NCBI GenBank assembly: GCA_031291755.1
Contig: JARLIK010000019.1
Coordinates: 248,001-312,000 of the forward strand
Direction: 5' to 3'
Source: Acidocella sp.
GTDB lineage: Bacteria; Pseudomonadota; Alphaproteobacteria; Acetobacterales; Acetobacteraceae
Length of the DNA: 64,000 nt
Both the position numbers and the translations under genes were made by a program. Below the pieces are notes generated by a model. The model had not been told where the DNA came from and did no database searches. It was given only the letters and a program-made list of their open reading frames with translations. Numbering within the stretch: the first letter of the stretch is position 1; every line of letters starts with the position of its first letter. Of this stretch, positions 34,474 to 54,826 are shown one piece after another.

Positions 34474-34483
34474 GTTCTGATAA

Positions 34484-34502
34484 ATTGAATTTTATATTCA
34501 AT
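34484..34502. promoter_or_regulatory. 19-bp inverted repeat, candidate LysR operator
   Basis: ATTGAAT (34484-34490) and ATTCAAT (34496-34502) are perfect inverted copies separated by TTTAT. It lies 11 bp after the lysR stop and about 95 bp ahead of the first sdh-like gene, with the T-N11-A geometry of LysR sites. Confidence 0.5.
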
Positions 34503-34597
34503 CTTATACGTTTTATTTGAATAATTAGGTATGCTAGTCATAACTGGCTAGTTTTACTGACGATAAGCGGCCGCATATGGCTGCATTGGGATGGGAA

Positions 34598-36002: not shown

Positions 36003-36011
36003 GATGATGCG

Positions 36012-37748: not shown

Positions 37749-37761
37749 TAGGTTTTTTGAA

Positions 37762-38721
37762 ATGATTTCCATCGATATTTTACAGCGGACCGCTGAAACG
37801 CTGATGGCGAAAGCCGCGATTGAAATTCCAGATGATTATTTGGCTGGGTTGCGCCGCTGCGTGGATACCGAAACAGGAGATCTCTCCTCGTTCGTGATTC
37901 AGGCCATGCTGGAAAATTATGAGGCAGCCAAGGAGGACCGCCGGGCCATGTGCGGCGATACTGGCGTGCCGCGCTGGTACGTGAAGTATGGCAATGAGGC
38001 GCGCGTTGAAGGCGGGCCGGTTGCGGTGGAAGCGGCATTACGGCGGGCCACCGCGCATGCCACTCATTCTGTGCCGTTGCGGCCCAATCGCGTGCACCCG
38101 CTTTGGCGGACTGATCATAATAACAACTGCGGCATCTTTGCTCCGGAGATTGATTATGCGTTTGATCCTGAAGGGGACTGGGTTGATTTAACCACGGTGC
38201 ATAAGGGCGGCTTGTTTGGCTCAGATTACCGGATGCTGTTTCCGGGTGACGGCATCGAGGGGATCAGGCGGTTTTATCTTGATACGCTGATCGGGTTTGG
38301 CAAACGCGGCCTTGCCTGTCAGCCGGCAATTGTGGGGATTGGCCTGGGCGGTTCAAAAGATGCCTGCATGGTGCTGGGCAAACAGGCATCGTGTTTGCGG
38401 GTCGTCGGTTCCCGGCACCCTGACCCGAAAATCGCGGCGCTGGAGGAGGAGTTGAAGGAGCTGGGCAATAAAATCGGGATGGGGGCGATGGGATTCATTG
38501 GCACCTCCATGGTGATAGATTGCCACATTGAAGTTGGTTATTGCCATACCGGCGGTATGCCGATGAGCGTGCATATGTTCTGTCTCTCCTCGCGCCGGGC
38601 GACCGCCCGGATTTACGCTGATGGGCAGGTGAAATTCCGGACTGACCCTGAATGGTTCAGTGATTATATGCGCCGTACCGGGGTTGAGTGGCCTGGCCTG
38701 CAGACTCAGGCGGCGGAGTAA
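37762..38721 (+). CDS. Class I fumarase/tartrate dehydratase-like alpha subunit
   Basis: A 319-residue [4Fe-4S] hydro-lyase subunit (Fumerase N-terminal family, like TtdA). CGDTG (Cys64), a central Cys near 186 and a distal Cys in EVGYCHTGG are candidates for the three cluster ligands. The GGLFGSDYRMLFPGDG segment is common to the family. It starts 14 nt after the flavoprotein and is followed 6 nt later by the beta subunit. Substrate could be fumarate/malate, tartrate, or a substituted dicarboxylate; the coupling to a dehydrogenase favours a substrate made by that enzyme. Confidence 0.82.
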   Translation: MISIDILQRTAETLMAKAAIEIPDDYLAGLRRCVDTETGDLSSFVIQAMLENYEAAKEDRRAMCGDTGVPRWYVKYGNEARVEGGPVAVEAALRRATAHATHSVPLRPNRVHPLWRTDHNNNCGIFAPEIDYAFDPEGDWVDLTTVHKGGLFGSDYRMLFPGDGIEGIRRFYLDTLIGFGKRGLACQPAIVGIGLGGSKDACMVLGKQASCLRVVGSRHPDPKIAALEEELKELGNKIGMGAMGFIGTSMVIDCHIEVGYCHTGGMPMSVHMFCLSSRRATARIYADGQVKFRTDPEWFSDYMRRTGVEWPGLQTQAAE

Positions 38722-38726
38722 GCGCG

Positions 38727-39395
38727 ATGGCTGGATTGAAAATCGTGGAATTGCAACTGCCTGCAACCACTGAGCAATTACGGGCGCTGGAGCTTGGCAC
38801 CGTGGTGTATTTGACGGGGCGGGTTTTTACCGGACGCGAGGGCGTCTATAAGCGTGCCGTAGAGGAAGGGCACGGCATGCCGGCTGCCCCTGAAGCTCTG
38901 GGGCGGGTGAATTTTCATTGTTCGCCGGCAGCTACTATTGAGGCTGACGGCAGCTTCACCATGGGGGCGGTTTCAGCCACGGCCTCGTTCCGGTTCGCCA
39001 AGTGGCTGGACGGCTGGTTTAAGCTTTCAGGCTGCAACATCATTATTGGCAAAGGCGGCATGACTTCGGCTGATTACCGGAAATTGTTCGTGCCACACGA
39101 TGCCATTTATTTGACCACTGTCGGTTACGGGACTGGCGCCCTGCTGGGCCGCGGGATCACCAAGGTGGTTGATGTGCTGTGGAAGGAAGAACTGGGGTTG
39201 GCACAGGCGGTTTGGGTGCTCGATGTGGTACGGTTTGGACCATTTCTGGTTGAAAGCGACATGGCGGGAAACAGTCTTTTTGAGCGTGAGAATGCCAAAA
39301 TTGCGGGCAATATAGCTGCACTTTATGAAGGCACGCGGCCGGCGACGCTGCGGCGTTATGGTGAGACCGACGATAAAACAGATGAGGTGATTTGA
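38727..39395 (+). CDS. Class I fumarase/tartrate dehydratase-like beta subunit
   Basis: A 222-residue C-terminal-domain subunit (like TtdB), starting ATG 38727. Recognisable are LELGTVVYLTGRVFTGREGVYK, INFHC-like VNFHCSPA, the SGCNIIIGKGGMTSADY block and the acidic end. It completes the split fumarase-type enzyme with the preceding gene. The preceding frame extension to 38688 overlaps the alpha subunit and is not used. Last gene of the LysR-linked operon. Confidence 0.82.
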   Translation: MAGLKIVELQLPATTEQLRALELGTVVYLTGRVFTGREGVYKRAVEEGHGMPAAPEALGRVNFHCSPAATIEADGSFTMGAVSATASFRFAKWLDGWFKLSGCNIIIGKGGMTSADYRKLFVPHDAIYLTTVGYGTGALLGRGITKVVDVLWKEELGLAQAVWVLDVVRFGPFLVESDMAGNSLFERENAKIAGNIAALYEGTRPATLRRYGETDDKTDEVI

Positions 39396-39429
39396 GCGGC
39401 CGGGAACGTGGGAGCGTCAGGTGGTTTTT

Positions 39430-39463
39430 TTGACAATCTGATATAAGATATATAAAGTTGACA
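39430..39463 (+). promoter_or_regulatory. Possible promoter/operator ahead of the NitT/TauT operon
   Basis: TTGACA (39430-39435), then GATATAAGATATATAAAGTTGACA up to 39463 with TATAAA at 39451-39456 (spacer 15 bp, short). The TATATAAAGTT string resembles the TATATAAGTT arm of the suy/hps operator, differing by one inserted A. Shared control with the sulfonate island is possible but weakly supported. Confidence 0.3.
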
Positions 39464-39569
39464 AGGTGGGTCAGTCCCCTCTAGTCTTTCTTAGTCCAAT
39501 GAAGTCGTGCGGTCTGAGCGATCGGAGCCGCGAAAAAGCAGGCTAAAAAACAGCGATGGGAGAATGAAT

Positions 39570-40562
39570 ATGCGGTTATTGCGCGGACTAGCTTTAGTAT
39601 TGATATCAGGCTTCTTGCTTCTCACTGGCGGCACTGGCTGGGCGCGGGCAGAAACGGTCGCGATCGCCCAGCAATACGGTATTTCCTATCTGCCATTGAC
39701 CATTATGCGTGTGCAAGATTTACTGGGTAAAGCCGGCAAGGCTGAGGGGATCGATATTACCACCAATTGGCTGACCTTTACCGGTGGCGCACCGATGAAC
39801 GAAGCACTGATTTCAGGAAATCTTGATATTGCCTCCGGTGGTGTGGCGCCAATGCTGGTATTATGGGACCGCACGCGCGGGAACATGGATGTAAAGGCAT
39901 TGGCAGCGCTGGGTTCGATGCCGCTATTCCTCAACACCTCCGATGCCAATGTGAAAACGATCAAGGATTTTACCGATAACGACCGGATTGCTCTGCCGGC
40001 TGTGAAAGTCTCCATCCAGGCTATTATTCTTGAAATGGCGGCGGCGCAGACATTCGGTGACGACAACTACAACAAGCTGAACGGCTTGACCGTTTCGATG
40101 TCACACCCCGATGGCTTGTCATCACTAATGAACGGCACTGCGGGGATCACGGCCCATTTTACCTCGGCACCGTTTCAGTACCAGGAATTGGCTGATCCGA
40201 AGATCCATAAAGTGCTGGACAGCTATCAAGTATTGGGCGGGCCGCACACGTTTAATGTGGTTTGGGCCAGCAAAAAGTTTGTCGATGGCAATCCAAAGGT
40301 CGTGAAAGCCTTCATGGTTGCGCTGCAGCAGGCGGTGAATTTTATAAATGCTCATCCAACCGAGGCGGCAAAAATTTATATCGCCGATGAAAAATCAAAA
40401 TCTTCTGTGCAGTCGATTGTGAGCATGATCAAAGACCCGCAGAATGTCTGGACCACGAAACCACAGCGGATCATGGAATTTGCCAAATTCATGCAAAAGA
40501 CGGGGCTGATCAAGCAGGTTCCGGCTACCACCAGCGACGTATTTTTCCAGTTTTCAAAATGA
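39570..40562 (+). CDS. NitT/TauT-family ABC substrate-binding protein
   Basis: A 330-residue secreted binding protein, starting at ATG 39570 with GGGAGA 6 nt upstream. Signal peptide about 1-27 (ending WARA/ETV). Mature VAIAQQYGISYLPLTIMR, GGAPMNEALISGNLDIASGG and VWASKKFVDGNPKVVKAF match the aliphatic sulfonate/nitrate/taurine-type binding fold. With an adjacent TauE/SafE exporter and the downstream sulfonate genes, an organosulfonate ligand is reasonable; a dicarboxylate for the preceding operon is the alternative. Confidence 0.85.
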   Translation: MRLLRGLALVLISGFLLLTGGTGWARAETVAIAQQYGISYLPLTIMRVQDLLGKAGKAEGIDITTNWLTFTGGAPMNEALISGNLDIASGGVAPMLVLWDRTRGNMDVKALAALGSMPLFLNTSDANVKTIKDFTDNDRIALPAVKVSIQAIILEMAAAQTFGDDNYNKLNGLTVSMSHPDGLSSLMNGTAGITAHFTSAPFQYQELADPKIHKVLDSYQVLGGPHTFNVVWASKKFVDGNPKVVKAFMVALQQAVNFINAHPTEAAKIYIADEKSKSSVQSIVSMIKDPQNVWTTKPQRIMEFAKFMQKTGLIKQVPATTSDVFFQFSK

Positions 40563-40615
40563 AGATTTTGTATTGCAGCTTACGTGATGGATGTTTGCGA
40601 TGATCGGAGGCCAGT

Positions 40616-41407
40616 GTGTCTGATAAAGATGATCTCGTACTCGATGTCAGTGGTGTAACGCTGCAATATAAAACGCCGCAATATCTGGTAACGGCCACCT
40701 ACCGGGTGAACCTTGAAGTGCACCAGAGCGATCGGTTTGTGCTTCTCGGTCCATCGGGTTGTGGAAAGTCAACATTGCTGAAGGCCATTGGCGGGTTCAT
40801 GGAACCAGTCGAAGGGACGATTTCGTTACGTGGCCGCCCGGTGACAAAGCCAGGGCCGGACCGGATGATGGTCTTTCAGGAATTTGAGCAGTTGATGCCC
40901 TGGAAAACTGTTTTGGGAAATGTAAAGTTCCCCATGCTGGCCAGCGGGCGTTTCAAGGGCCGCGATGCGCATGAGCGGGCTTTGGCGGCGATTGACAAGG
41001 TTCGATTAACAAAATTCACTGACGTCTATCCGCACATGCTCTCAGGCGGCATGAAGATGCGTGTCGCCATCGCCCGGGCCATGGCGATGGAGCCGGATAT
41101 TTTGCTGATGGATGAGCCTTTCGCGGCGCTGGATGCACTTACCCGCCGTAAGATGCAGGATGAATTGCTGGCGCTGTGGGAACAGGTTCGTTTCACCATG
41201 CTTTTTGTAACCCATTCCATTGAAGAGGCCATCGTGATCGGCTCACGTATCATGCTGCTCTCGCCGCATCCCGGTCGGGTACGGGCCGAATTGAATTCGC
41301 CCGGTCCGCATGGCGATGAAGCCGAGATTTCACATCTATCAAAGCATATTCATGACTTGTTATTTGGTCATGAGCTTTCGGCGCGACGCCCCGCGGGGGT
41401 AGCATGA
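40616..41407 (+). CDS. NitT/TauT-family ABC transporter ATPase
   Basis: A 263-residue ATPase (GTG start 40616). Walker A GPSGCGKST, Q-loop MVFQEFEQLMPWK, signature LSGGMKMRVAIARAM, Walker B ILLMDEPFAALD, switch FVTHSIEEA. The LSGGMKMR signature is that of sulfonate/nitrate importers. It follows the binding protein by 53 nt and overlaps the permease by 4 nt. Confidence 0.9.
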   Translation: MSDKDDLVLDVSGVTLQYKTPQYLVTATYRVNLEVHQSDRFVLLGPSGCGKSTLLKAIGGFMEPVEGTISLRGRPVTKPGPDRMMVFQEFEQLMPWKTVLGNVKFPMLASGRFKGRDAHERALAAIDKVRLTKFTDVYPHMLSGGMKMRVAIARAMAMEPDILLMDEPFAALDALTRRKMQDELLALWEQVRFTMLFVTHSIEEAIVIGSRIMLLSPHPGRVRAELNSPGPHGDEAEISHLSKHIHDLLFGHELSARRPAGVA

Positions 41408-42297
41408 ATACCAATACGATGAAAAAAGACGCCTTGAAATTGCGCGTGAGGCCCGAGTTTGAGCGCGATTTGGTGGATGCCAGCACAATCGGGGCCGCAG
41501 AAATACCGCTAACACCCTTGCAGCGCTTGCGGAATAACACAGCTTTTCGCCGCGGTGCCATTTTGGTGATGATGGCGCTAATCTGGCAAGGCTACGCGCT
41601 ATGGCTTAATAATCCTCTGTTATTCCCAACTTTCAGCGACACTGTGACGGTAATGGTGCGCGACTTCATCAACGGTGAGCTTCTGGGCCGGGTGATGACA
41701 TCAATGAAAGTGCTGATCATTGGCTATGTGATCGGCGTTGCCTTGGCGGCTGTGCTCACCACGTTGGCGGTCGCTAGCCGTTTGGGTAGCGATGTGCTCG
41801 CAACCTTGACGGCGATGTTCAATCCGCTGCCGGCCATCGCGCTGCTGCCGCTGGCCCTTATCTGGTTTGGACTCGGCATGTGGTCGCTGGTGTTTGTGCT
41901 GGTGCATGGCGTGCTCTGGGCCATTGCGCTGAATACCAATTCAGGGTTTCGCTCGGTGCCGGAAACGTTGCGGATGAGCGGCCGCAATTACGGGCTGACT
42001 GGCGTGCGTTATGTTGTATTGATCCTCATCCCCGCGGCGTTTCCCTCGATCTTGACCGGATTGAAAATTGGCTGGGCATTTGCCTGGCGGACGCTGATCG
42101 CGGCGGAGCTGGTGTTTGGCGTATCTTCGCGCTCCGGCGGTCTGGGCTGGTATATTTTCGAGGCGCGCGAGGAGTTGAATACCTCCAGCGTGTTTGCGGG
42201 GTTGCTGACCGTGATTGTCATTGGTTTGCTGGTGGAATCGGTATTGTTCCGCGCCATCGAAGTCCGCACGGTGCAAAAATGGGGTATGCAGCGATAG
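41404..42297 (+). CDS. NitT/TauT-family ABC transporter permease
   Basis: A 297-residue permease: a hydrophilic N-terminus of about 50 residues, then six membrane helices, with PETLRMSGRNYGLTGVRYVV as the EAA loop and SRSGGLGWYIFEAREELNTSSVFAGL near the end, typical of SsuC/TauC. It overlaps the ATPase and is followed 7 nt later by the TauE/SafE gene, so all four are probably one transcript. Confidence 0.88.
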   Translation: MNTNTMKKDALKLRVRPEFERDLVDASTIGAAEIPLTPLQRLRNNTAFRRGAILVMMALIWQGYALWLNNPLLFPTFSDTVTVMVRDFINGELLGRVMTSMKVLIIGYVIGVALAAVLTTLAVASRLGSDVLATLTAMFNPLPAIALLPLALIWFGLGMWSLVFVLVHGVLWAIALNTNSGFRSVPETLRMSGRNYGLTGVRYVVLILIPAAFPSILTGLKIGWAFAWRTLIAAELVFGVSSRSGGLGWYIFEAREELNTSSVFAGLLTVIVIGLLVESVLFRAIEVRTVQKWGMQR

Positions 42298-42304
42298 CCC
42301 CGAT

Positions 42305-43039
42305 ATGAGCTTCGCGCTCCCCTATAATTTGCTGCTGGTCGTCTGGCTTGGAGCATTTTTTGGCGGGATCATTTCCGGCGCCAGCGGCTTCGGATTCGCG
42401 TTGATCGCGGCCTCTTTCTGGCTGCACCGGCTGACACCGGTTGAGACGACGGCTTTAATTACCGGGTGCAGTATTATCGTGAACGCCGGACTCATGTGGC
42501 CGATGCGCGCCTCTATCGAGCCGCGCCGGCTGGCACCTTTTGTGTTTGGCGGGTTGCTGGGCGTACCTGTAGGGGTTTGGGTGCTGTCGATTTTGAACGT
42601 CAGCGATTTTAAAATAATTCTCGGCACGTTGATGACATTGTTTGGGCTGTATGTTTTGTTCGTTAGGCGTCTGCCGGCTTTCGCGCGGGTGCCCCTGGCC
42701 GTTGATATTTCAGTTGGTGCCGCTGGCGGGATTCTCAGCGGGCTGGGCGGCTTCGCCGGAGTATTGCCGATGATCTGGACACAGTTGCGTGGCTGGCCGC
42801 GTGACACAGCGCGCGGAGTCTACCAGCCATTTGTTCTGGTTGTGCAGATTTTTACTTTAGCGCTTATCGTCGTATCGCAGATCGACAAAATGGCCTTGAT
42901 GCTGATCATCGTTTCCGTTCCCCCCTTGGCCGCCGGAAGCTGGATCGGCTGGCAGCTTTATAGCCGGATGAACCACGAATTATTCCGCAAGGTGGTGGCT
43001 GCCGGCGTTATGGTGTCAGGGCTTACGCTGGTATTTTGA
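42305..43039 (+). CDS. TauE/SafE-family exporter, probable sulfite exporter
   Basis: A 244-residue inner-membrane protein with about eight helices and the repeated TauE glycine motif (GAFFGGIISGASGFGFALIA near residues 17-36, and GAAGGILSGLGGFAGVLP midway). ATG 42305 fits better than the upstream frame that overlaps the permease. Family members TauZ/CuyZ/SuyZ export sulfite released by C3 and C2 sulfonate desulfonation. Downstream on the other strand, 3 bp away, is the end of the sulfolactate operon, which would generate sulfite. Confidence 0.8.
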   Translation: MSFALPYNLLLVVWLGAFFGGIISGASGFGFALIAASFWLHRLTPVETTALITGCSIIVNAGLMWPMRASIEPRRLAPFVFGGLLGVPVGVWVLSILNVSDFKIILGTLMTLFGLYVLFVRRLPAFARVPLAVDISVGAAGGILSGLGGFAGVLPMIWTQLRGWPRDTARGVYQPFVLVVQIFTLALIVVSQIDKMALMLIIVSVPPLAAGSWIGWQLYSRMNHELFRKVVAAGVMVSGLTLVF

Positions 43040-43042
43040 AAG

Positions 43043-43789
43043 TTAGGTCACTTCCGTGGCGTAGCTATAGTCGTTGGTTTTGCAATAGCTGATACGTAGT
43101 TCGGCTATTTTACCATTGACGTCACGAGCGACGCGAGCGATTTCCAGCAGCGGAAAATCCTTCGGAACATCCAAATGCTTCATTTCATCTCGGCCTGCCG
43201 GAACGGCGCGTAATGTTTCGCTGGCATTGGCAATCGTGATCCGGTAGCGCTCCTGATAAATCACATACATTTCGTCAACCATGTCGACGCCAGGCGTGAC
43301 CGCGAGATCGGGCATCAAGACCACGGGAATGTAAACCCGTTCAAAAATGGCCGGATCATTACCAAAATACCGCACCCGCGTAATCACGTGCAGCATCTCG
43401 CCCACTGTGACCGCCAGCAGCCTGGCCAGTTCCTTGTTGGCTCGCATTTGTTTTTGCGATAACGGCCGGCTCACCGGTGTCAGCCGTTGATGCTCAGCGT
43501 CCACCATCCGGAAAAACTGGAACAAGGTCTGCTCACCGGTATGGCGCGCCACATAAGTGCCACGCCCCTGGCGGCGCACGATCAGTTTATCGGCCTCAAG
43601 CGCGATGAGAGCCTTGCGCACGGTCCCTTGGCTCACCTTGAACTCGGCGGCAAGCTGGAATTCGTTGGGAATCATTTCGCCCGGTTGCCAAAGCCCGGAC
43701 CCAATGCGCTGCGTCATCAGCGCCTTGACCTGCGCATAGAGTGGCTGGAAGCTCATGCCGGCGTCGGGCTTATTTGCGGCTTCACTCAT
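43043..43789 (-). CDS. GntR/HutC-family regulator of the sulfonate genes
   Basis: A 248-residue regulator: winged HTH about 20-85 (EFKVSQGTVRKALIALEADKLIVRRQGRGTYV lies here) followed by a UTRA ligand-binding domain (about 105-240). It is the last gene on the minus strand of suyA-suyB-slcC-comC-gntR, 105 nt after comC. The likely operators are the two inverted 15-bp copies at 47325 and 47421; the ligand would be sulfolactate or DHPS. Assignment to those sites is inference from position. Confidence 0.85.
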   Translation of the reverse strand: MSEAANKPDAGMSFQPLYAQVKALMTQRIGSGLWQPGEMIPNEFQLAAEFKVSQGTVRKALIALEADKLIVRRQGRGTYVARHTGEQTLFQFFRMVDAEHQRLTPVSRPLSQKQMRANKELARLLAVTVGEMLHVITRVRYFGNDPAIFERVYIPVVLMPDLAVTPGVDMVDEMYVIYQERYRITIANASETLRAVPAGRDEMKHLDVPKDFPLLEIARVARDVNGKIAELRISYCKTNDYSYATEVT

Positions 43790-43844
43790 GTCATGTCAGG
43801 CTTCGGGTTACGGGCAGGTACGATAAATGTATCATACCCCTTAT

Positions 43845-43855
43845 AGATAATATCT
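43845..43855. promoter_or_regulatory. Short palindrome upstream of the GntR gene
   Basis: AGATA-A-TATCT is an 11-bp dyad in the 105-bp gap between comC and gntR, next to GATA-AATG-TATC (43831-43842). Its sequence differs from the operator in the suy/hps control region. It may serve gntR autoregulation. Confidence 0.3.
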
Positions 43856-43894
43856 GACCTGTAACGGCAAGGGCTAATGGCGCTTTCGGCCCCG

Positions 43895-44872
43895 TTATGA
43901 TCCCGCAAACCATGATTCCTGCACCTCCAGCCCCTCGCGGGCCGCTTTTTGCCGGTTGGCAAGGCGGCGCTCACCCGGCAAACGGGCATTTTTCTCCGCG
44001 GCAACGGCGGCGAACAGCCGCTCAATATGGCTCACTCCGAGGCCGAACAGGGCCGGATTTATGGCGATTATGAATTGGCCAGTGCCTGGGGGCGGGCCTT
44101 TGGCATCGAGAAACGATGAGGCTTCGAATGCAAAATGGCTGCCGGTCAGTCCGGCGGCCATGGCTTCCACCATCAGCGCCAGTGCCGCCCCTTTGGCGCC
44201 GCCCAGCGGCAGCATGGTGCCCGCCAGCGCGGCCTTGGCATTGGTGGTTGGGTTGCCGTCAACATCCAGCGCCCAGTCATCAGGGATAGCTTCGCCGCGC
44301 TGCGCTGCCGCCACCACGTTACCGCGTGCCACTTTCGAGAGCGACAAATCAATCACCACCGGCGGGTTATCAGGGCGCGGAAACGCACTGGCGATCGGGT
44401 TGGTGCCCATTAATGGCGTTTGCCCGCCCCAGGGCGCCATGGCGGCGGGGGCGTTGGCGAACATTATGGCGATCAGGCCGCGTTCGGCCAGGCGTTCCAC
44501 CGCCAGCCCCATAGCGCCGCAATGGCCGGAGCGGGTGATGGCTACCGCAGCAATGCCTTGCGCGGCGGCTACTGGCACCAGCGCGTTGATGGCGAGGTCG
44601 ATGGCGGGGTAGGCAAAACCGTTGGCGGCATCCACAATCAGGGCGGAAGGAGCGGTCTGGCTAAGGTTGGGAACGGCAAAACCATCAACCTTGCCGCAGT
44701 TGGCCTGCGCCGCGTAAGTGCCAAGCCGCAACAGCCCGTGCGTGCCCAGCCCGTCCGCTTGCGCCGACACCAAGGCCGTGGCAACCGATTTAGCATTGGC
44801 GGCGGAGATTTTATGCGCCACCAGCACAGCTTCAGCCTTGGCTTGCACCTCTGCGAGGGATAATATTTCCAT
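43895..44872 (-). CDS. comC: Malate/L-lactate dehydrogenase-family enzyme, probable (R)-sulfolactate dehydrogenase
   Basis: A 325-residue Ldh2/ComC-family NAD(P)-dependent 2-hydroxyacid dehydrogenase. DGLGTHGLLRL near residue 40, the catalytic-His region ITRSGHCGAMG near residue 112 and MGTNPIASAFP are family hallmarks. ComC oxidises or reduces the (R)-sulfolactate/sulfopyruvate pair. It follows slcC by 5 nt in the suyAB operon; in Chromohalobacter-type pathways SlcC plus ComC act as a racemase, converting (S)- to (R)-sulfolactate, the SuyAB substrate. Assignment rests on context plus family. Confidence 0.78.
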   Translation of the reverse strand: MEILSLAEVQAKAEAVLVAHKISAANAKSVATALVSAQADGLGTHGLLRLGTYAAQANCGKVDGFAVPNLSQTAPSALIVDAANGFAYPAIDLAINALVPVAAAQGIAAVAITRSGHCGAMGLAVERLAERGLIAIMFANAPAAMAPWGGQTPLMGTNPIASAFPRPDNPPVVIDLSLSKVARGNVVAAAQRGEAIPDDWALDVDGNPTTNAKAALAGTMLPLGGAKGAALALMVEAMAAGLTGSHFAFEASSFLDAKGPPPGTGQFIIAINPALFGLGVSHIERLFAAVAAEKNARLPGERRLANRQKAAREGLEVQESWFAGS

Positions 44873-44877
44873 TTAAT

Positions 44878-45807
44878 CTATCCCAGTTTGAGGTCACGCA
44901 GCACGATGTCGGCAATCATGCTGGAAACCCGCACGTTGGATTCTGCCGTTACCCCGGCGATGTGCGGGGTGAGGATCAGATTATCGATACCTTGGAACAA
45001 AGCGCCATGCACGGTATCGAGCGGTTCATTCTCGAATACGTCGAGGGCGGCACCAGCAATTTGCCGGGCACGCAGGGAATCCGCCAGAGCCGCCTCATCC
45101 ACCACGCCGCCGCGCGCTGCATTGATCAGGACGGCGTTCGGTTTCATCAAGGCCAGCGTTTCGCGGTTCACCAAATGCCGGGTCTCCGCCGATAACGGCA
45201 CATGCAGGCTGATAACGTCACATGTTGCGAAAAGCTCGCTAAGTTCCAGCCGCTCGGCTGTTTGCCAGGCTGGGTGCGAGGCAGGCAAAAACGGATCAGC
45301 GGCGCTTATATGCATGCCCAACGCCGCCAGCCGCGCCGCTGCCTGCCGGGCGGTGCCGCCGAAACCAACCAGCCCGGCGCGCTTGCCGGCAATCTCGAGG
45401 CCGATCAACCGCTCACGCGGCCAGCTTCCCGCAGCCACGGCGGCGGTGTCGCGGTAGGCGCCGCGCAGCAGCATCATTGCCGTGCAAACTACATATTCGG
45501 CCACCGCCGCGTCATTGGCGCCGGTGGCCGGATATACGGCAATGTTGCGTGCCGCACAGGCTGCAAGGTCGATATTATCCAACCCAACACCGAGCCGCCC
45601 CACCAGTTGCAGTTTTGGACCGGCGTCCAGTAATGCCGCTCGTACTTGCGTGCGGTTGCGAACGATCAGCGCCCGCGCCGAGCCCAGGGCCGCCCGCAAA
45701 TCATCCGGGCGGTCAACGAGGTCCGGTTCATACAGCACAGGCGTCTTTGCCTGCAGCCGATGCACCGAAGCCTCGTCCATGAACTCGGCGATAACAATAT
45801 CCGCCAT
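44878..45807 (-). CDS. slcC: D-2-hydroxyacid dehydrogenase-family enzyme, probable (S)-sulfolactate dehydrogenase
   Basis: A 309-residue NAD-binding dehydrogenase of the D-isomer 2-hydroxyacid family. LVGRLGVGLDNIDL, the nucleotide-binding VGFGGTARQAAARL near residue 148, catalytic Arg in NAARGGVVDE, Glu in DVFENEPL and His in LTPHIAGVT are all present. In sulfolactate-degrading bacteria SlcC oxidises (S)-sulfolactate to sulfopyruvate. It is 7 nt from suyB and 5 nt from comC, so the three are tightly coupled. Confidence 0.78.
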   Translation of the reverse strand: MADIVIAEFMDEASVHRLQAKTPVLYEPDLVDRPDDLRAALGSARALIVRNRTQVRAALLDAGPKLQLVGRLGVGLDNIDLAACAARNIAVYPATGANDAAVAEYVVCTAMMLLRGAYRDTAAVAAGSWPRERLIGLEIAGKRAGLVGFGGTARQAAARLAALGMHISAADPFLPASHPAWQTAERLELSELFATCDVISLHVPLSAETRHLVNRETLALMKPNAVLINAARGGVVDEAALADSLRARQIAGAALDVFENEPLDTVHGALFQGIDNLILTPHIAGVTAESNVRVSSMIADIVLRDLKLG

Positions 45808-45814
45808 GATAATC

Positions 45815-46987
45815 TCAGGCGCTGCGATACAGCTTTGTCATGCTGAATTCGCGGTGCCCCAGCGCCTCGGCGGCGGTCAGGCGGCCATTGGCAGTCCGGC
45901 CGATATTATCGATCAACGCATCGCCGGCCTGATCGATTGTCATTTCCCGGCGCAGTACGCCGGACACATCAACATCGATATGCTCGGGCATGGTCCGCAC
46001 CGTGCGCGGATTACCAGTGATTTTGATCACCGGCACGATAGGATTGCCGATCACGTTACCTTGGCCGGTCGGGAAGGTATGGATGACATAACCAGCGGCA
46101 GCCATTAACGTGACGCATTCAGCAGCAGCGGATGATGTGTCCATGTAATACAAGCCAGGCCCGCGTGCCGGGGCTTCAGCCGGCTGCAAGGCATCGAGGA
46201 ACTTGCTGTTATGGCCAATCTTTTCAAGATTACCCAGGGCCTTTTCCTCAATGGTGGTCAAGCCGCCAAGGATATTGCCTTTGGTGGGCTGGCTGTCCGA
46301 GAGGTCATCGGTTTTGTGAGCTTCGATCACATCTTCCTGATAGGCCTTCCACATTTTATACCATTTTTCCTCGATCTCCGGGGAGATGGCCCGCTTGCGC
46401 GCCAGATGTTCACCGCCGGTGATTTCCGAGGTTTCACCAAACACGCCGTAAATACCGTGCGGGATGAGTTTATCATACATATTGCCAACCGCCGGGCAGG
46501 AGGCGAGGCCGGTGGTGGTATCGCTTTCACCGCATTTGGTGGAAATCCAAAGGTCTGAAACCGGCACCGGCTCGCGCTTCAGCTCAGAAGCCCATTGCAC
46601 GAATTCCTTGGCCTTGCGCGAGGCGGAGGCAATGGTGTTGATGTCGCCATGCTGCTCGATCCAGAAACCTTCAACAGGTTTGCCGGTTTTGCGGATGCCG
46701 TCCACTACCCGGCCGGTCCATGATGGTTCGATCCCGATTACGATGACAGCAGCGACATTCGGGTTCGAGCCGGTGCCGATGAGGGTGCGGAAATGCACTT
46801 CCAAATCCTCGCCAAACTGCAAACGCCCGTAGGCGTGCGGAATGGCCATGGTGCCTTTGATATTGTTGGCGACTGCCTCGCAGGCGGCGTTCGACAAATC
46901 ATCGAGCGGTAAAATCAAAACATGATTGCGTACGCCAACGCGGTTATTTTCGCGGCGCCAGCCGGTCAGGGTCATTTCATTCATCAT
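45815..46987 (-). CDS. suyB: (2R)-sulfolactate sulfo-lyase, large subunit
   Basis: A 390-residue UxaA/altronate-dehydratase-family protein. Typical blocks are [33 protein letters not shown], the Cys-containing [20 protein letters not shown] and [25 protein letters not shown]. The SuyB-type split with a separate 95-residue SAF partner, plus neighbouring sulfolactate dehydrogenases, separates it from true altronate dehydratase. SuyAB cleaves (R)-sulfolactate to pyruvate and sulfite. It lies 11 nt after suyA. Confidence 0.87.
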
Positions 46988-46998
46988 ACGCGCTCCGG

Positions 46999-47286
46999 TT
47001 ACCAGCGTTTCGTTTTAAGATTTTGGGTGTGAACATGGCTGCCCTTACGGGTATCAGCCACCATTTTGCCGATATCTTCGCCATATTTAATTGCCGTATC
47101 CCCCGCTTTCAGGTCGCGCAGGGCCACTTTATGGCCGATCGGCACATCATCATTCACGGTCAGATGAAACGCTGTGTTGGTTTTGGTGATTACGCATAAC
47201 ATGTCAGTGCCGGCCTTGAGGTCTTCAACAACAACAACGCCGACATTGTCTTCTGGGTTATGAACTAAAAGCTGTGGTATGCTCAT
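46999..47286 (-). CDS. suyA: (2R)-sulfolactate sulfo-lyase, small subunit (SAF domain)
   Basis: A 95-residue SAF-domain protein: [17 protein letters not shown] at the start, [25 protein letters not shown] in the middle (the UxaA N-terminal signature) and a [14 protein letters not shown] end that is typical of this subunit. First gene of the minus-strand operon. Its promoter lies about 40-70 bp upstream with the left operator over the -10. Works as a complex with SuyB in the cytosol. Confidence 0.87.
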
Positions 47287-47324
47287 GGCAGGAGTATTCC
47301 TCTCTCTTTAAAATCCCGTGCTCC

Positions 47325-47339
47325 ATAACTTATATAAGA
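47325..47339. promoter_or_regulatory. Left operator copy of the suy/hps control region
   Basis: ATAACTTATATAAGA, containing the perfect palindrome CTTATATAAG, is an exact reverse-complement copy of 47421-47435. It overlaps the -10 of the minus-strand suyA promoter, so a bound repressor would block transcription. GntR/HutC binding is inferred. Confidence 0.7.
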
Positions 47340-47356
47340 TAGCAATTTAATGTCAA
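47329..47356 (-). promoter_or_regulatory. suyA promoter
   Basis: On the minus strand TTGACA (47356-47351), 16-bp spacer, TATAAG (47334-47329). The -35 is perfect consensus and the -10 five of six. It drives suyA-suyB-slcC-comC and perhaps gntR. Confidence 0.7.
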
Positions 47357-47410
47357 CCTCTACCTCTGATTACGGATATATTAGTCCACGGGAGCTATAA
47401 TATTTACCGC

Positions 47411-47438
47411 TTGACACAAGTCTTATATAAGTTATATT
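47411..47438 (+). promoter_or_regulatory. Promoter of the MFS-hpsN-SDR-ADH operon
   Basis: TTGACA (47411-47416), 16-bp spacer, TATATT (47433-47438), one base from consensus. The right operator copy falls in the spacer and -10. About 85 bp precede the MFS start; the leader carries two GAGCTATAA direct repeats (47392-47400, 47501-47509), the first spanning a TATAAT that may be a second -10. Confidence 0.7.
47421..47435. promoter_or_regulatory. Right operator copy of the suy/hps control region
   Basis: TCTTATATAAGTTAT is the exact inverse of the left copy, 81 bp away (between inner ends). It lies between the -35 and -10 of the plus-strand promoter, a classic repressor position. The pair in inverse orientation would allow one regulator to shut both operons. 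Confidence 0.7.
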
Positions 47439-47523
47439 AGTGGTTGTCGAGTATAAAATACAGGCTATCAAAAAGGCCGTGAATAAAATGCTAAATACCA
47501 GAGCTATAAACGGGAGATAATTA

Positions 47524-50246
<2,723 letters not shown>

Positions 50247-50249
50247 AGC

Positions 50250-51014
50250 ATGACGCATCGTCTTGATGATTTATTCAACCTCGATGGTCGTCATGCGCTC
50301 GTAACGGGTGGCAGTAGCGGCATTGGTTTGGCCATCGCAGAAGCTCTCGGGCGGCAAGGTGCATCCATTACCCTGGTTGCACGGAGGGAGGCCGAACTGC
50401 TAGCCGCCGCTGCACGGTTGCGCGGCCTTGGTATCACGGCTGATTTCATAGCGGCAGATTTAGTTAAATATGAGGGACCGGATGCAGTTTCTGACGTTAT
50501 AAAAACGCCGGTGGATATTATGGTAAATGCGGCCGGCATGAATTTGCGCCAACCGTTTGAATCGGTAACGCTGGAGGCGTTTGATGAACACATGGCGGTG
50601 CATCTTCGCGCGCCGTTCCGGCTTGTGCAGCGTCTGGCCCCCGCCATGGCGAAGCGGAACTATGGCCGCGTGATCATGATCGGCTCATTGCAATCATACC
50701 GCGCTTTCCCCAACTCGGCGCCCTACGGTGCGGCCAAAGGGGGTGTGATACAATTAACCCGTGCCATCGCCGAGCAATGGTCACGTCACGGTATTACCTG
50801 CAATGCCATTGTGCCGGGATTTTTCCGCACAGGCTTGACCGAAGCCGTGTTCAAGGATGAAGCGATCGCGGCACGCAATGCGGCTCAAACTGCCATTGGC
50901 CGCAACGGTGAACTGGAAGATTTGTTCGGCACCGCGATTTTTTTAGCGTCAGCCGCATCGGCCTATGTGACAGGTCAGATATTGCCGGTGGATGGCGGAT
51001 TTTCTGCCAAGTAA
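50250..51014 (+). CDS. SDR-family oxidoreductase, candidate DHPS 2-dehydrogenase
   Basis: A 254-residue classical short-chain dehydrogenase: NAD(P)-binding TGGSSGIG (about 19-26), NAAG near 93, and the catalytic triad Ser146, Tyr159, Lys163 (YGAAK). It starts 3 nt after hpsN. In hps clusters two C2-directed dehydrogenases (HpsO and HpsP) interconvert DHPS enantiomers via the 2-ketone; this gene and the next fill those two roles. Which corresponds to which symbol I cannot say. Confidence 0.75.
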   Translation: MTHRLDDLFNLDGRHALVTGGSSGIGLAIAEALGRQGASITLVARREAELLAAAARLRGLGITADFIAADLVKYEGPDAVSDVIKTPVDIMVNAAGMNLRQPFESVTLEAFDEHMAVHLRAPFRLVQRLAPAMAKRNYGRVIMIGSLQSYRAFPNSAPYGAAKGGVIQLTRAIAEQWSRHGITCNAIVPGFFRTGLTEAVFKDEAIAARNAAQTAIGRNGELEDLFGTAIFLASAASAYVTGQILPVDGGFSAK

Positions 51015-51024
51015 AGGAGGCGTC

Positions 51025-52020
51025 ATGAAAGCGCTGATGTATCTTGCCCCAGGGGCATTGGAATACCGCGAAGTGCCGATCCCCGTAGCAGGGTCCGGCG
51101 AACTTTTGGTGAAGGTTGAGGCGGTCGGCATTTGCGGCTCGGACATGCATGCCTACCATGGCCACGACGACCGCCGCCCGCCGCCGCTGGTGCTGGGCCA
51201 TGAAGCCGCGGGCGTGATTGCCGAAGGCCCGCGCCGCGGCCAGCGTGTAACCATAAATCCGCTGGTGACATGTGGACATTGCGAATTCTGTATTGCGGGT
51301 GACACGCATCTCTGCGAGCAGCGGCAGATCATCTCAATGCCGCCACGGCCCGGCGCATTTGGTGATTATGTCACGATACCAGAACGTAATGTCGTGATGA
51401 TCCCTGATGCGATGCCGTTCAATGTCGCGGCGCTGGCGGAACCTTTGGCAGTTTCCTGGCATGCCGTGCGCATTGGGGTGGAATTGTTGCGGCGGCCCTT
51501 GGCGGTTGCTTCCTGTTGCGTGCTGGGAGGCGGGGCGATTGGGCTCGGCGCGGCCCTGGTGCTGCGCCGCTTTGGTGCCCATGATATTCATTTGGGTGAG
51601 CCGAATGAAAAACGCCGCGCCACTGCGGCGGCGGCGCTGACATTGAACGCTTATGCGCCAGGCAGCCATGATGAGCCACCGGCAGCCTCGGTTGATTTTG
51701 TGATTGATGCTGTGGGCGCCAAGGCTACCCGCGAGGCGGCCAGCCGTCTGGTCAAGCCGGGCGGCGTCATCGTTCATGCCGGTTTGCTGCCGGGGCAGGA
51801 GGGTTTTGATGTCCGTAGGATCACTTTGCAAGAAGTCACAGTGCGTGGAACCTATTGCTACACCCAGGGTGATTTCCGCGACGTTGTCGACACACTTGCA
51901 GTCAATGGCTTTGGCGACCTCAACTGGGTGGCACAGATGCAGTTGAGCGCGGGTGCGCAGGCGTTTGCTGCCATCGATCAGGGCGAACTAGCCGCTGCCA
52001 AGATTATTTTAATTCCTTGA
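51025..52020 (+). CDS. Zn-dependent medium-chain dehydrogenase, candidate DHPS 2-dehydrogenase
   Basis: A 331-residue MDR-family alcohol dehydrogenase. Catalytic-Zn residues are seen in GICGSDMHAYHGH and LGHEAAGVI; the structural-Zn loop is CGHCEFCIAGDTHLC. The nucleotide-binding glycine motif LGGGAIGLG is mid-protein. AAAGGAGG precedes ATG 51025; an upstream frame overlaps the SDR stop. Last gene of the MFS-hpsN-SDR-ADH operon. Sorbitol/threonine-type dehydrogenases are relatives, so substrate comes from context. Confidence 0.78.
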   Translation: MKALMYLAPGALEYREVPIPVAGSGELLVKVEAVGICGSDMHAYHGHDDRRPPPLVLGHEAAGVIAEGPRRGQRVTINPLVTCGHCEFCIAGDTHLCEQRQIISMPPRPGAFGDYVTIPERNVVMIPDAMPFNVAALAEPLAVSWHAVRIGVELLRRPLAVASCCVLGGGAIGLGAALVLRRFGAHDIHLGEPNEKRRATAAAALTLNAYAPGSHDEPPAASVDFVIDAVGAKATREAASRLVKPGGVIVHAGLLPGQEGFDVRRITLQEVTVRGTYCYTQGDFRDVVDTLAVNGFGDLNWVAQMQLSAGAQAFAAIDQGELAAAKIILIP

Positions 52021-52134
52021 TCTCGCTGCATCGGTCTCGCTAACAAGCGGCTTGACTTTCCCGGCGTGTCGAAGCTACCTTAATCAAAACTAAAGTTCGA
52101 TATACGTACAAAAATAAAATACGGGAAAGCAACG

Positions 52135-53097
52135 ATGGTCAAGCTTGCGATAACACGCAGGAATAGTCTTCAATTCGCCGGCGCTGTGACAGCCAGCAGT
52201 TATCTCGGGATTAGGCGCGCTGCGGCGGCAGACCCTTATCCGAGCGCTACGATCAATTTTGTTATTCCCTTTGGTCCAGGCGGAACATTTGATGCTTATG
52301 GCCGTGAGTTCTCGATGCTTCTTACAAAGTCGCTGGGCGTCAATGTGGAGCCAATCAATGACCCAGGCGCCGGCGGTATGGAGGCCATTGTGGCGCTGTT
52401 CCATGAGAAACCGGATGGCTATACCTTCAGCCTGGCGGATGTTCCTGGAACTCAGATTCGTAAAACCGAGCCTGGAGAGCCGTTAAAAAATCTCACCTGG
52501 GTCGCCAATCTCGGTCGCGACGCCTTTGGCCTCGCTGTCGGCGCTGATTCGCCGATTAAAAACCTAGCCGACCTGCAAGCCATTTCGGCAAAGCGGCCGA
52601 TCAAATTTGCGGCTACCGGCGTTGATTCAGCCTATGTGGCAACTAAAATTTTCCTGGCAGCGCTGGGACTGCGTTCGGAATTTATTACCGGCTATGAAAG
52701 CTCAGTGAATTCTTCCATTGCAGCAAAACGCGGCGATGTTGACGCCGTGGTTTTTTCACAGACAGCCATTACCAAAATGCAAAAATCGGGAATTTTGAAG
52801 CTGATTTTTGTGTTCCAAAATGAATCCCCATCAGCCGATGTTGAAAATGCGCTCTCGGCAAATCAGCCCGATCTGGGTAAAGTGTTTGCCTGGCGTACGG
52901 TAGTGGCGCCACCAGGACTGCCGCCTAGTGTGACGGCAAAATTATCCAGCGCCTTGGTGGCTGCCGCAAAAACAAATGAAGCCAAAGCTTGGGCTGACAA
53001 AATCAAGGCCACCCTATATCCACTCGACCATGCGCAAACCTTAAAAATGCTGGCCGAGCAAGATGTGATCTTGAAGAAATGGCATAGCGTTTTTTAA
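52135..53097 (+). CDS. Tripartite tricarboxylate transporter-type binding protein (Bug family)
   Basis: A 320-residue extracytoplasmic binding protein with a Tat-like signal (ITRRNSLQFAG, cleavage near residue 32 after RRAAAA). YPSATINFVIPFGPGGTFDAYGR and DPGAGGMEAI are Bug-family ligand loops. No large and small membrane subunits (TctA/TctB) follow, so it is an orphan here. SlcH of some sulfolactate clusters belongs to this family, so a sulfonate ligand is possible. About 115 bp separate it from the ADH gene. Confidence 0.83.
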   Translation: MVKLAITRRNSLQFAGAVTASSYLGIRRAAAADPYPSATINFVIPFGPGGTFDAYGREFSMLLTKSLGVNVEPINDPGAGGMEAIVALFHEKPDGYTFSLADVPGTQIRKTEPGEPLKNLTWVANLGRDAFGLAVGADSPIKNLADLQAISAKRPIKFAATGVDSAYVATKIFLAALGLRSEFITGYESSVNSSIAAKRGDVDAVVFSQTAITKMQKSGILKLIFVFQNESPSADVENALSANQPDLGKVFAWRTVVAPPGLPPSVTAKLSSALVAAAKTNEAKAWADKIKATLYPLDHAQTLKMLAEQDVILKKWHSVF

Positions 53098-53131: not shown

Positions 53132-54826
53132 TTACGAAACGTCCCATAATCTCACGGTCTGATCATCGCTGGCAGATGCCAGCGTGTTGCCGTCCGGCGA
53201 ATAGGCCACACAGAAAACCTTGCCGGTATGGCCGGTCAAGGTACTGGCCACCGTCCCGCTGCTGATATTCCAAAGCTTAATGGTGAAATCATCGCTGCCG
53301 GATGCTAGGGTGGTTCCGTCCGGTGAAAACACCACTGACTCAACCACTTTGGTATGTCCGCTCAAGGTGCGAATTTGATTGCCGCTGGCAATATCCCAAA
53401 GCGTGATGTTGGTATTGCTGCTGCCGGTGGCGAGGGTTTTGCCATCCCGTGAAATCGCCACCGAGTTGATATCCGAGGTGTCGACCGAGACGCTGCGGGT
53501 CCGGCTGGCTGAAGCCACGTCCCACAGCGTGGCCGAACCGCCGACACTGCCGGAGGCCAGCACACTGCCGTCAGGTGAAAATGTCACCGCCAGAACCCGG
53601 TTTGCGTCGGATGTCATGATATGGGTAAGGGCACCATCCAGCGTCCAGAGTTTGACATTGCCATCAAAGCCACCCGAGGCGAGCGGACCAGAGGCCGAGC
53701 CGAAAGCCACATACATCACCGAGTTGGTATTGCCGGTGATGTTAACGATTAAGCTGCCGTCTGAGACATTCCAAAGCCGGATGGTCTTGTCGCTGCCGCA
53801 CGACGCCAGCGGCCCGCCGCCGGGGCAGAAAGCCACGGACTGCACGGTGTCGGTGTGACCGGTAAGGGTTCGTATCGGGTCTCCGCTGGCCGGGTCCCAT
53901 AGCCGGACGGTCTTATCGCTGCCGCCCGAAGCCAGCGTGTGGCCGTCCGATGAAAACGCCACGGCTGCCACGCTGCCGGTATGGCCGGTCAATATCCGTG
54001 GGAGGCTCGGGCCATGGTGCCGCAGAAGGAGAAAGCCGCCGCCGGCCGCCGCTGCCCCAACGCCGGCTGCAGCAATCAGCAGCCCTCGCCGGCTCGGCTT
54101 CGGTTGTGCGGCCTCCTTGAAACTTGTGTTGTCGTGGAAGCGGTCATCGACCGGGACAGAACGCGGGGTTGCATCCACAGGCGATTGCAATGCCTCAGTT
54201 AGCTTGGGAGCAGGCTGACCGATTTGAGTCTCAAGATGCGACATTTCAGTCACCGGCTCGAGGATCGTAATCGGCGATTTCGGAGGGGCAACTGGTTTGG
54301 GTGGATCAACGGGCCGCGGTGCGTCAACCGGCGGCGGTTCGGCATGCTTTATACTGGGCGGCGCAACGACCGGCGGCGCTTCCGGTGTCTCTTCATGCAA
54401 GGGCGCTGCGTCAGTCCGGGCCGGCCCGTTCAAAACCCGCTGCAATACCTCGACCAGATACTGCAGATGCCGCTCCATCGGCTCCGTAAAGGCATCGAGC
54501 CAATGCGGCATTGAGAGGAAGAATTCCAGCGATTTGGTGGGTTCCACATCCTCAATCCGCAGCGGAATGATGGGGATACCTAAATGAACAGCGCGTTCAA
54601 CCTCGCGCTTGACCTGCGGCGAGGCATTGGCCCAGGCCGAAAACACCAGCACCATGGCGTGTGCGCTGGCCAGCGCCTCAATGATGGATTCGCCCCAGTC
54701 GGCAGAGGGCAAAATATCCCGTGGGGCGATCCAACAGCGGATAAGGTTGGCTTCCAGCACGGCGCAAACCGCATCCGCCACTGGTTTGTCCTGCTTTGAG
54801 TAGCTTATGAAGACATCATGGGCCAT
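53132..54826 (-). CDS. TIR domain-transmembrane-WD40 repeat protein
   Basis: A 564-residue protein. The TIR domain (1-133) has HDVFISYSKQDKPVADAV, CWIAPRDILPSADWGESI (Glu46 is the candidate NADase glutamate) and QVKREVERAV. A Pro-rich linker (about 135-245) leads to a basic-flanked hydrophobic helix (248-268) and seven WD40 blades (about 277-564), each ending in variants of LWD. With N-in topology the propeller would lie in the periplasm and TIR in the cytosol. Follows STAS and HATPase genes on the same strand. NADase, scaffold or adaptor roles all possible. Confidence 0.88.
   Translation of the reverse strand: MAHDVFISYSKQDKPVADAVCAVLEANLIRCWIAPRDILPSADWGESIIEALASAHAMVLVFSAWANASPQVKREVERAVHLGIPIIPLRIEDVEPTKSLEFFLSMPHWLDAFTEPMERHLQYLVEVLQRVLNGPARTDAAPLHEETPEAPPVVAPPSIKHAEPPPVDAPRPVDPPKPVAPPKSPITILEPVTEMSHLETQIGQPAPKLTEALQSPVDATPRSVPVDDRFHDNTSFKEAAQPKPSRRGLLIAAAGVGAAAAGGGFLLLRHHGPSLPRILTGHTGSVAAVAFSSDGHTLASGGSDKTVRLWDPASGDPIRTLTGHTDTVQSVAFCPGGGPLASCGSDKTIRLWNVSDGSLIVNITGNTNSVMYVAFGSASGPLASGGFDGNVKLWTLDGALTHIMTSDANRVLAVTFSPDGSVLASGSVGGSATLWDVASASRTRSVSVDTSDINSVAISRDGKTLATGSSNTNITLWDIASGNQIRTLSGHTKVVESVVFSPDGTTLASGSDDFTIKLWNISSGTVASTLTGHTGKVFCVAYSPDGNTLASASDDQTVRLWDVS

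Follow-up and report, generated by a model that had tools for sequence, protein, structure and literature searches.

Small sulfonates are breakdown products of plants and algae. Which of them could be degraded by the genes clustered in a 64,000-nucleotide stretch of an Acidocella sp. genome (assembly GCA_031291755.1, contig JARLIK010000019.1, positions 248,001 to 312,000; hereafter the window), and by which route? A first-pass annotation, made from the sequence alone, had read positions 43043-52020 as two divergent operons for the catabolism of 2,3-dihydroxypropane-1-sulfonate (DHPS) and sulfolactate, and each gene that it named is present there as an open reading frame (ORF), with Pfam profiles supporting the fold of every gene in the segment. 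The flanking genes on either side (33550-43039 and 52135-53097) suit the same sulfonate setting, and those upstream form an operon that resembles succinate dehydrogenase (SDH) and class I fumarase. Taken as a whole, 33550-53097 is quite probably a single sulfonate-degrading island with two branches that converge on sulfolactate. The first branch, for which the sequence evidence is close to compelling, would degrade DHPS and sulfolactate via HpsNOP, SlcC/ComC and SuyAB. In the second, 3-sulfopropanoate is the probable substrate of the SDH-like/fumarase-like module. The reactions assigned to the host, above all the substrate of the second branch, are predictions drawn from identities, clades, motifs, linkage and co-occurrence. 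The genome assembly comprises 2.59 Mb on 38 contigs, with an estimated completeness of 83.67% and contamination of 1.36%.

Predicted genes for DHPS and sulfolactate degradation

The two operons diverge from the gap at 47287-47523. Leftward, on the minus strand, lie suyA (46999-47286), suyB (45815-46987), a slcC-like gene (44878-45807), a comC-like gene (43895-44872) and gntR (43043-43789). Rightward, on the plus strand, are genes for a major facilitator superfamily (MFS) transporter (47524-48942; PF07690), HpsN (48939-50246), the short-chain dehydrogenase/reductase (SDR) HpsO (50250-51014) and the Zn-dependent HpsP (likely start 51025, within an ORF at 50992-52020), followed by a TctC-type solute-binding protein (52135-53097; PF03401) that possibly belongs to the same pathway. 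The HisD-family protein HpsN, the predicted (R)-DHPS 3-dehydrogenase, scored 683 bits on 8v35, a solved sulfopropanediol 3-dehydrogenase, and 475 bits on the (R)-DHPS dehydrogenase 8wwe, versus 227 bits for the best HisD, and is 68.8% identical to HpsN of Cupriavidus pinatubonensis HN-2. HpsN enzymes are separated from HisD by a GRY[AS]H motif that carries the sulfonate-binding His (PMC11382572). The window protein has GRYAH at residues 121-125, with H125 as the sulfonate-binding His, and the active-site residues E318, H319 and D352 of the C. pinatubonensis enzyme (CpHpsN) are matched, with an offset of one, by E317, H318 and D351. The other two dehydrogenases also retain the residues described for their characterized counterparts (PMC11131964). 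HpsO keeps the SDR triad and the Gln ascribed to (R)-DHPS (S146, Q148, Y159 and K163, equivalent to S145, Q147, Y158 and K162 of RpHpsO), and HpsP, the predicted (S)-DHPS dehydrogenase, has H59, E60 and E139 when counted from position 51025, numbering identical to that of DsHpsP.

SuyAB shows the split make-up of (R)-sulfolactate sulfo-lyase, with a small SAF-domain subunit (SuyA; PF08666, 22.8 bits against a cut-off of 21) and a large GD_AH/UxaA-type subunit (SuyB) that falls in a 21-row clade (support 100/100) with SuyB of C. pinatubonensis, Paracoccus and Methylobacterium. The tree comprised 27 chosen rows, in which the family was represented by 13 of its 29 further matches, and carried a long-branch warning among the outgroups. 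SuyB is 66, 79 and 85% identical to its counterparts in C. pinatubonensis, P. versutus and M. oryzae, respectively, and only 30% identical to Escherichia coli UxaA and 28% to a partial GarD. The first-pass annotation had named phylogeny against altronate dehydratases as a check on SuyB, and the altronate and galactarate dehydratases of E. coli both fall outside the SuyB clade.

It is therefore very improbable that the cluster is an ordinary set of genes in which HpsN acts as a histidinol dehydrogenase and SuyAB as a dehydratase of altronate or galactarate. That reading draws on the automatic annotation of homologues as hisD and UxaA and on the hisD model TIGR00069, which HpsN passes with 418 bits (cut-off 244). 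We rejected HpsN as HisD on the gap in scores to the solved enzyme, on the GRYAH motif (scores and motif, rather than a tree, settled this point in favor of the first-pass annotation) and on the presence of another HisD-family gene, probably the true hisD, on contig C25 of the same genome, with a PF00815 score above that of HpsN. The assignment of SuyB to an altronate or galactarate dehydratase was likewise rejected, given its place in the tree, the identities of 28-30% and a score of 126 bits on the galactarate dehydratase model TIGR03248 (cut-off 731).

Assignment of the two dehydrogenases encoded next to suyAB was less direct. The SlcC-like protein, a candidate (S)-sulfolactate dehydrogenase, has the 2-hydroxyacid dehydrogenase fold (PF02826 and PF00389), and its gene pairs with a comC-like gene beside suyAB in M. 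oryzae and others, as it does in the window. The candidate (R)-sulfolactate dehydrogenase belongs to the Ldh_2 family (PF02615, 315 bits), and its best-scoring model is that of L-sulfolactate dehydrogenase (NF040650). We refer to it only as ComC-like because its score (180.5 bits) falls short of the cut-off (500). The pathway reading of the first-pass annotation was partly supported: it held on the sequence tests of HpsN and SuyB and fell short on the ComC-like cut-off. That SlcC and ComC are assigned from family and gene context counts against the pathway as drawn here.

In the first branch, the MFS carrier, probably for DHPS or sulfolactate, would take up DHPS, whose enantiomers HpsO and HpsP would interconvert or oxidize. 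HpsN is predicted to form (R)-sulfolactate from (R)-DHPS in an NAD-dependent four-electron oxidation. (S)-Sulfolactate would reach the (R) configuration via sulfopyruvate through the action of SlcC and ComC, and the Fe-dependent SuyAB would then cleave (R)-sulfolactate to pyruvate and sulfite. The sulfite could exit through a TauE-type exporter encoded in the upstream operon or be oxidized by a SorA-like enzyme encoded elsewhere. A candidate for this oxidation is encoded on contig C5 (L222:1075-2355, minus strand), a SorA-like sulfite dehydrogenase with a score of 461 bits against a cut-off of 600.

The gap between the operons contains two palindromic sites. A putative operator at 47328-47339 reads ACTTATATAAGA and has CTTATATAAG as its palindromic core, and a second putative copy, TCTTATATAAGT, is at 47421-47432, inside a sigma-70-like promoter (TTGACA-16-TATATT, 47411-47438). 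Allowing one mismatch, ACTTATATAAG matched the two strands of the window solely at these positions (0.18 expected), and none of 100 shuffles reached four matches. The promoter-like element alone is weak, because shuffles average 1.1 such elements and 2 were found. The operator is conserved 5' of suyA in most of the relatives inspected: in a by-eye comparison of nine such regions, the exact palindrome CTTATATAAG was present in five (the window, L106, L107, L110 and M. oryzae L004), a variant in three (L108, L111 and L091), and neither was found in one (L109). The sites look like targets of the GntR/UTRA regulator (PF00392 and PF07702), and the natural reading is that this probable repressor acts at both palindromes and would switch both operons.

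The DHPS/sulfolactate core is of a known kind and a further example of a widespread pathway. In C. pinatubonensis (JMP134, PMC11382572; HN-2, plasmid p2), hpsN, hpsO, an hpsP-like gene, an MFS gene, suyA, suyB and a tripartite tricarboxylate transporter binding protein gene, which follows suyAB, are likewise found together, with identities to the window proteins of 69% (HpsN), 56% (HpsO), 43% (HpsP) and 66% (SuyB). The co-location of these genes in strain HN-2 and the 683 bits to 8v35 make a chance cluster an untenable explanation. Unlike C. pinatubonensis, the window has two divergent operons, additional slcC-like and comC-like genes, and a GntR rather than a LacI regulator. Counterparts of suyB (85% identity), slcC (63%), comC (58%) and gntR (41%) are found together in Methylobacterium oryzae. 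The SlcC/ComC-SuyAB pathway of Chromohalobacter salexigens and Paracoccus (PMC12421959) has the same four kinds of genes in one operon with a tauE gene adjoining, yet is fed by the breakdown of sulfofucose; that of the window would be fed by the DHPS enzymes and, probably, by the SDH-like/fumarase-like module. The genes hpsO, hpsP and hpsN have been reported in 609 genomes of 126 genera (PMC11131964). Among 200 genomes of the host's family, we detected HpsN-like proteins (E<=1e-120, identity down to 48%) in 22 and SuyB (E<=1e-120) in 30. A genome of the same genus (G187, locus L106) has a suyB 91% identical to that of the window together with the operator, and lacks hpsN and the SDH-like module at the thresholds used. 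The island is, thus, patchy even within the genus.

An operon resembling succinate dehydrogenase and fumarase

The more novel part of the island is the neighboring operon, which is encoded entirely on the plus strand. A LysR-type regulator (33550-34473; PF03466 and PF00126) is followed by an SdhB-like iron-sulfur subunit (34577-35329; TIGR00384, 189 bits, cut-off 88), an SdhD-like membrane anchor (35332-35655, inside an ORF at 35209-35655), an SdhC-like cytochrome b subunit (35652-36002) and an SdhA-like flavoprotein (36012-37748; PF00890 and PF02910), the proposed 3-sulfopropanoate dehydrogenase. The proposed sulfoacrylate hydratase is the fumarase-like pair, with an alpha (37762-38721; PF05681; TIGR00722, 211 bits, cut-off 101) and a beta subunit (38688-39395, likely start 38727; PF05683, 77 bits, cut-off 22). 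Next are genes for an ATP-binding cassette (ABC) importer, which comprises an SsuA/TauA-type sulfonate binding protein (39507-40562), a TauB-type ATPase (40616-41407) and a TauC/SsuC-type permease (41404-42297; PF00528), and for a TauE/SafE-type exporter, probably of sulfite (42305-43039, with a longer ORF from 42215; PF01925, 91.8 bits, cut-off 32.6). The SDH-like and fumarase-like genes are an extra set, because elsewhere the genome encodes three further proteins with the Succ_DH_flav_C domain and a second class I fumarase. On contig C1 (L127), a further SdhA/FrdA-like protein is encoded in an open frame of 643 amino acids, besides the housekeeping SdhA and a NadB-like protein.

The module shares with succinate dehydrogenase/fumarate reductase and class I fumarase the subunit make-up, the folds and the catalytic His and Arg residues. 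We aligned the SdhA-like protein with those of 109 other loci (12 on plasmids, 17 from the host's family and 80 named loci). In all 110 rows a Cys (Cys48) occupies the position of the FAD-carrying His of the E. coli enzymes SdhA and FrdA, a Glu (Glu257) that of the substrate-pocket Thr (T244 of FrdA, T254 of SdhA), and Asn-Gly-Val takes the place of Asn-Ser-Leu. The His of the HPTG motif is retained in 110/110, and two catalytic Arg and a second His in every row printed, eight module rows among them. In the E. coli enzymes these positions serve in covalent FAD linkage (His), binding of the second carboxylate (Thr) and catalysis (His and Arg). The SdhA-like protein further differs from complex II in a six-residue insertion ahead of Glu257, relative to E. 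coli, and in its low identity to the three paralogues of the genome (32, 28 and 30%). In a tree of 38 of 115 rows, which gave long-branch warnings, the module proteins formed a clade of their own (33 rows, support 99/98) that takes in Rhodococcus and two haloarchaea; both E. coli proteins, SdhA and FrdA, and the paralogues from the host genome fall outside it.

The gene set recurs in other genomes. Of at least 593 stretches that matched a pattern, at least 581 encode a relative at E<=1e-3, though some of these may lie outside the module, and we examined the best 80, the named loci, which are 77-87% identical to the Sulfitobacter SdhA-like query and mostly Rhodobacterales by title. Using blastp at E<=1e-8, and with many loci ending at contig ends, we found homologues of SdhA in 80, SdhC in 79, FumA in 78, SdhB in 77, SdhD in 77 (42-55% identity), FumB in 74, LysR in 56 and TauE in 49. 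A second arrangement of the module occurs in the host's family. In G197 (L091), genes for SuyA, SuyB, TauABC, SdhBDC, TauE, FumAB, SdhA, SlcC and ComC lie on one strand, with a divergent gntR. Plasmids of M. oryzae and P. versutus carry the module together with suyAB, slcC and comC, Rhodococcus jostii RHA1 has it within about 20 kb of SuyB, and a plasmid of Pseudomonas sp. MPC6 combines it with CuyA and HpsN. In Pseudorhizobium banfieldiae NT-26 it is adjoined by genes for a succinic semialdehyde dehydrogenase (SSADH; 691 bits, cut-off 646) and a sulfolactaldehyde-reductase-like protein (324 bits, cut-off 348). These neighbors fit a route from 3-hydroxypropanesulfonate (3-HPS) to 3-sulfopropanal and 3-sulfopropanoate, although they would fit DHPS too. 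The MPC6 and NT-26 plasmids (L033 and L035) are typed conjugative, and the module may, therefore, spread.

Two haloarchaea, Natribaculum and Haloarcula, encode SdhA and SdhB beside an ArgH-like enzyme (L034:8200-9702 and L039:8275-9777), TauE and a pair of UxaA type, and the annotation shows no fumarase within 10 kb. On the argH model the ArgH-like enzyme of Haloarcula scored 323 bits (cut-off 280), and on that of XcbC 257 (cut-off 575), the enzyme of coenzyme M synthesis that makes sulfoacrylate. Because its identity to SuyB is only 34-35% and its place in the tree is outside the clade of SuyB, we do not call the UxaA-type pair SuyAB.

Co-occurrence links the module to SuyB. We scored the SdhA-like protein (E<=1e-150) and SuyB (E<=1e-120) in the 200 genomes of the family and in 387 of the class. 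In the family, 18 genomes had the SdhA-like protein and 15 of them SuyB also (Fisher p=6.8e-12); counted by genus, SuyB accompanied the module in 12/12 genera. HpsN-like proteins were present in 7 of the 18 (p=0.001). In the class, 36 genomes had the SdhA-like protein, 37 SuyB and 22 both (p=4.9e-17; 21 with both and p=3.1e-16 without the host's own genome). Because the genomes are related, these p-values overstate independence. Among 42 module genomes (39 reached through 40 loci chosen from the 80, plus G058, G095 and G134, which were picked as lacking SuyB), SuyB was found in 9, CuyA over its cut-off in 24, Xsc over its cut-off in 33 and at least one of the three in 38, figures that describe module genomes only.

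The proposed second branch and its alternatives

Roseovarius nubinhibens ISM is reported to degrade homotaurine via 3-sulfopropanoate, sulfoacrylate and sulfolactate (Konstanz thesis, as cited in PMC11489063, which otherwise calls the degradation of 3-sulfopropanoate and 3-HPS unreported), and homotaurine degradation is likewise attributed to Paracoccus pantotrophus NKNCYSA (PMC12421959). The genome of R. nubinhibens ISM carries the SDH-like/fumarase-like gene set (L160; 83% identity to the query). It differs from the window in that SuyB was not found at E<=1e-120, CuyA and Xsc score over their cut-offs, and a CoA-transferase gene (L160:12162-13874) is present between fumA and fumB. No SDH- or fumarase-like genes are named for the homotaurine route in the accessible text of PMC11489063 or PMC12421959, and a word search of the former returned no mention of fumarase or succinate dehydrogenase. 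Nor did we find genes named for the 3-sulfopropanoate route in the open literature searched, a scope outside which subscription papers and the thesis lie.

The series 3-sulfopropanoate, sulfoacrylate, sulfolactate and sulfopyruvate matches succinate, fumarate, malate and oxaloacetate, and by this analogy the module would run the same chemistry. Such mimicry is documented for HpfX and HpfYZ, homologues of SSADH and succinyl-CoA synthetase that act on C3 sulfonates (PMC11489063). We propose 3-sulfopropanoate as its substrate because of the recurring gene set, the linkage to slcC-comC-suyAB, the co-occurrence with SuyB, R. nubinhibens, the distinct SdhA clade, the NT-26 neighbors and the haloarchaeal loci. 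The ABC importer would take up 3-sulfopropanoate, in structure a succinate with a sulfonate group in place of one carboxylate. Oxidation of this compound to 3-sulfoacrylate by the SdhABCD-like enzyme would transfer electrons to quinone, and the fumarase-like enzyme would hydrate 3-sulfoacrylate to 3-sulfolactate, where the branches join. More broadly, it is rather likely that the module repeats a section of the citric-acid cycle on sulfonates, in which a dedicated SDH-like enzyme and the fumarase-like pair (or the ArgH-like enzyme replacing it in the two haloarchaea) feed SuyAB, CuyA or Xsc.

Several observations weigh against this proposal. Some concern the proteins of the window. The NCBIfam models for SsuA (TIGR01728, 82.9 bits, cut-off 163.5), TauB (taurine ATPase, the best model, 203 bits, cut-off 357), TauC (the permease is under cut-off on the SaoP, SsuC, TauC and NtrB models) and the fumarase beta subunit (TIGR00723, 105 bits, cut-off 145) were all under cut-off. 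A flavin without the FAD-linking His should have a lower potential, which would not favor oxidation, and the fumarase alpha subunits of the modules are of two types (61-89% versus 33-37% identical to that of the window). Other observations come from the loci. SuyB lies inside the flank in only 2 of the 80 named loci and HpsN in 3; the TauE matches are weak (28-36% identity, none at E<=1e-40); and the haloarchaeal UxaA pair is, as noted, outside the SuyB clade. A thiamine-diphosphate enzyme of the acetolactate synthase/2-hydroxyacyl-CoA lyase type, under the Xsc cut-off, recurs beside the module in 18/80 named and 9/17 family loci (L004:4562-6187, L036:7410-9011). Possible roles are the cleavage of sulfolactyl-CoA or a reaction on sulfopyruvate; the enzyme of M. 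oryzae was rejected as Xsc (158 bits, cut-off 676). A class III CoA-transferase (PF02515), for which the proposed scheme has no need, is present in 10/80 named loci, one copy just 34% identical. Finally, SuyB is absent at threshold from 3/18 family and 14/36 class module genomes, and 4 of the 42 module genomes (G095, G201, G221 and G224) have no SuyB, CuyA or Xsc over threshold.

Some of these points would be accommodated if the module acted on a different substrate. One candidate is sulfosuccinate, or some other dicarboxylate bearing a sulfonate. From it the SDH-like enzyme would form sulfofumarate, and hydration at the sulfonated carbon would yield an unstable hydroxysulfonate, which would break down to oxaloacetate and to sulfite for export by TauE. 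Such a route has no requirement for SuyAB, which suits the module genomes without SuyB and the module of Methylobacterium nodulans, whose neighbors are a sulfite dehydrogenase, a sulfate exporter, TauE and a dicarboxylate symporter, with no suyAB within 12 kb. It leaves unexplained, however, the linkage to slcC-comC-suyAB, the co-occurrence with SuyB in 15/18 and 22/36 genomes, the SSADH neighbor and the route reported for R. nubinhibens, and we consider it unlikely. A little less improbable, though still doubtful, is that the module acts on a non-sulfonated dicarboxylate, such as methylsuccinate or mesaconate, or is a spare SDH and fumarase, given that islands collect catabolic genes. Hydration of mesaconate is a known activity of class I fumarases, the CoA-transferase of the 10 named loci shows a relationship to the succinyl-CoA:mesaconate type (195 bits against a cut-off of 700), and tripartite tricarboxylate transporter genes are present in 28-29 of the 80. 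The TauE-like gene in 49 of the 80 named loci, the sulfite dehydrogenase and sulfate exporter neighbors, the sulfonate type of the window importer, the association with SuyB in two samples and the single cluster with slcC-comC-suyAB all argue against a substrate without sulfur.

If 3-sulfopropanoate is indeed the substrate, the module names the missing genes for the breakdown of 3-sulfopropanoate, homotaurine and 3-hydroxypropanesulfonate, a gene set that spans Proteobacteria, an actinobacterium and haloarchaea and is carried partly on conjugative plasmids. It could also account for many genes beside sulfite exporters that are annotated as "fumarate reductase" or "fumarate hydratase", and the question of 3-sulfopropanoate would become testable in a cultured strain. 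The neighboring operon turns the finding into a specific, testable claim on the genes for a route that the accessible literature describes only as metabolites. Directly after the island, at 53132-54826, is a gene for a protein whose sequence, read by eye, resembles a TIR domain at the N terminus with WD40 repeats after it.

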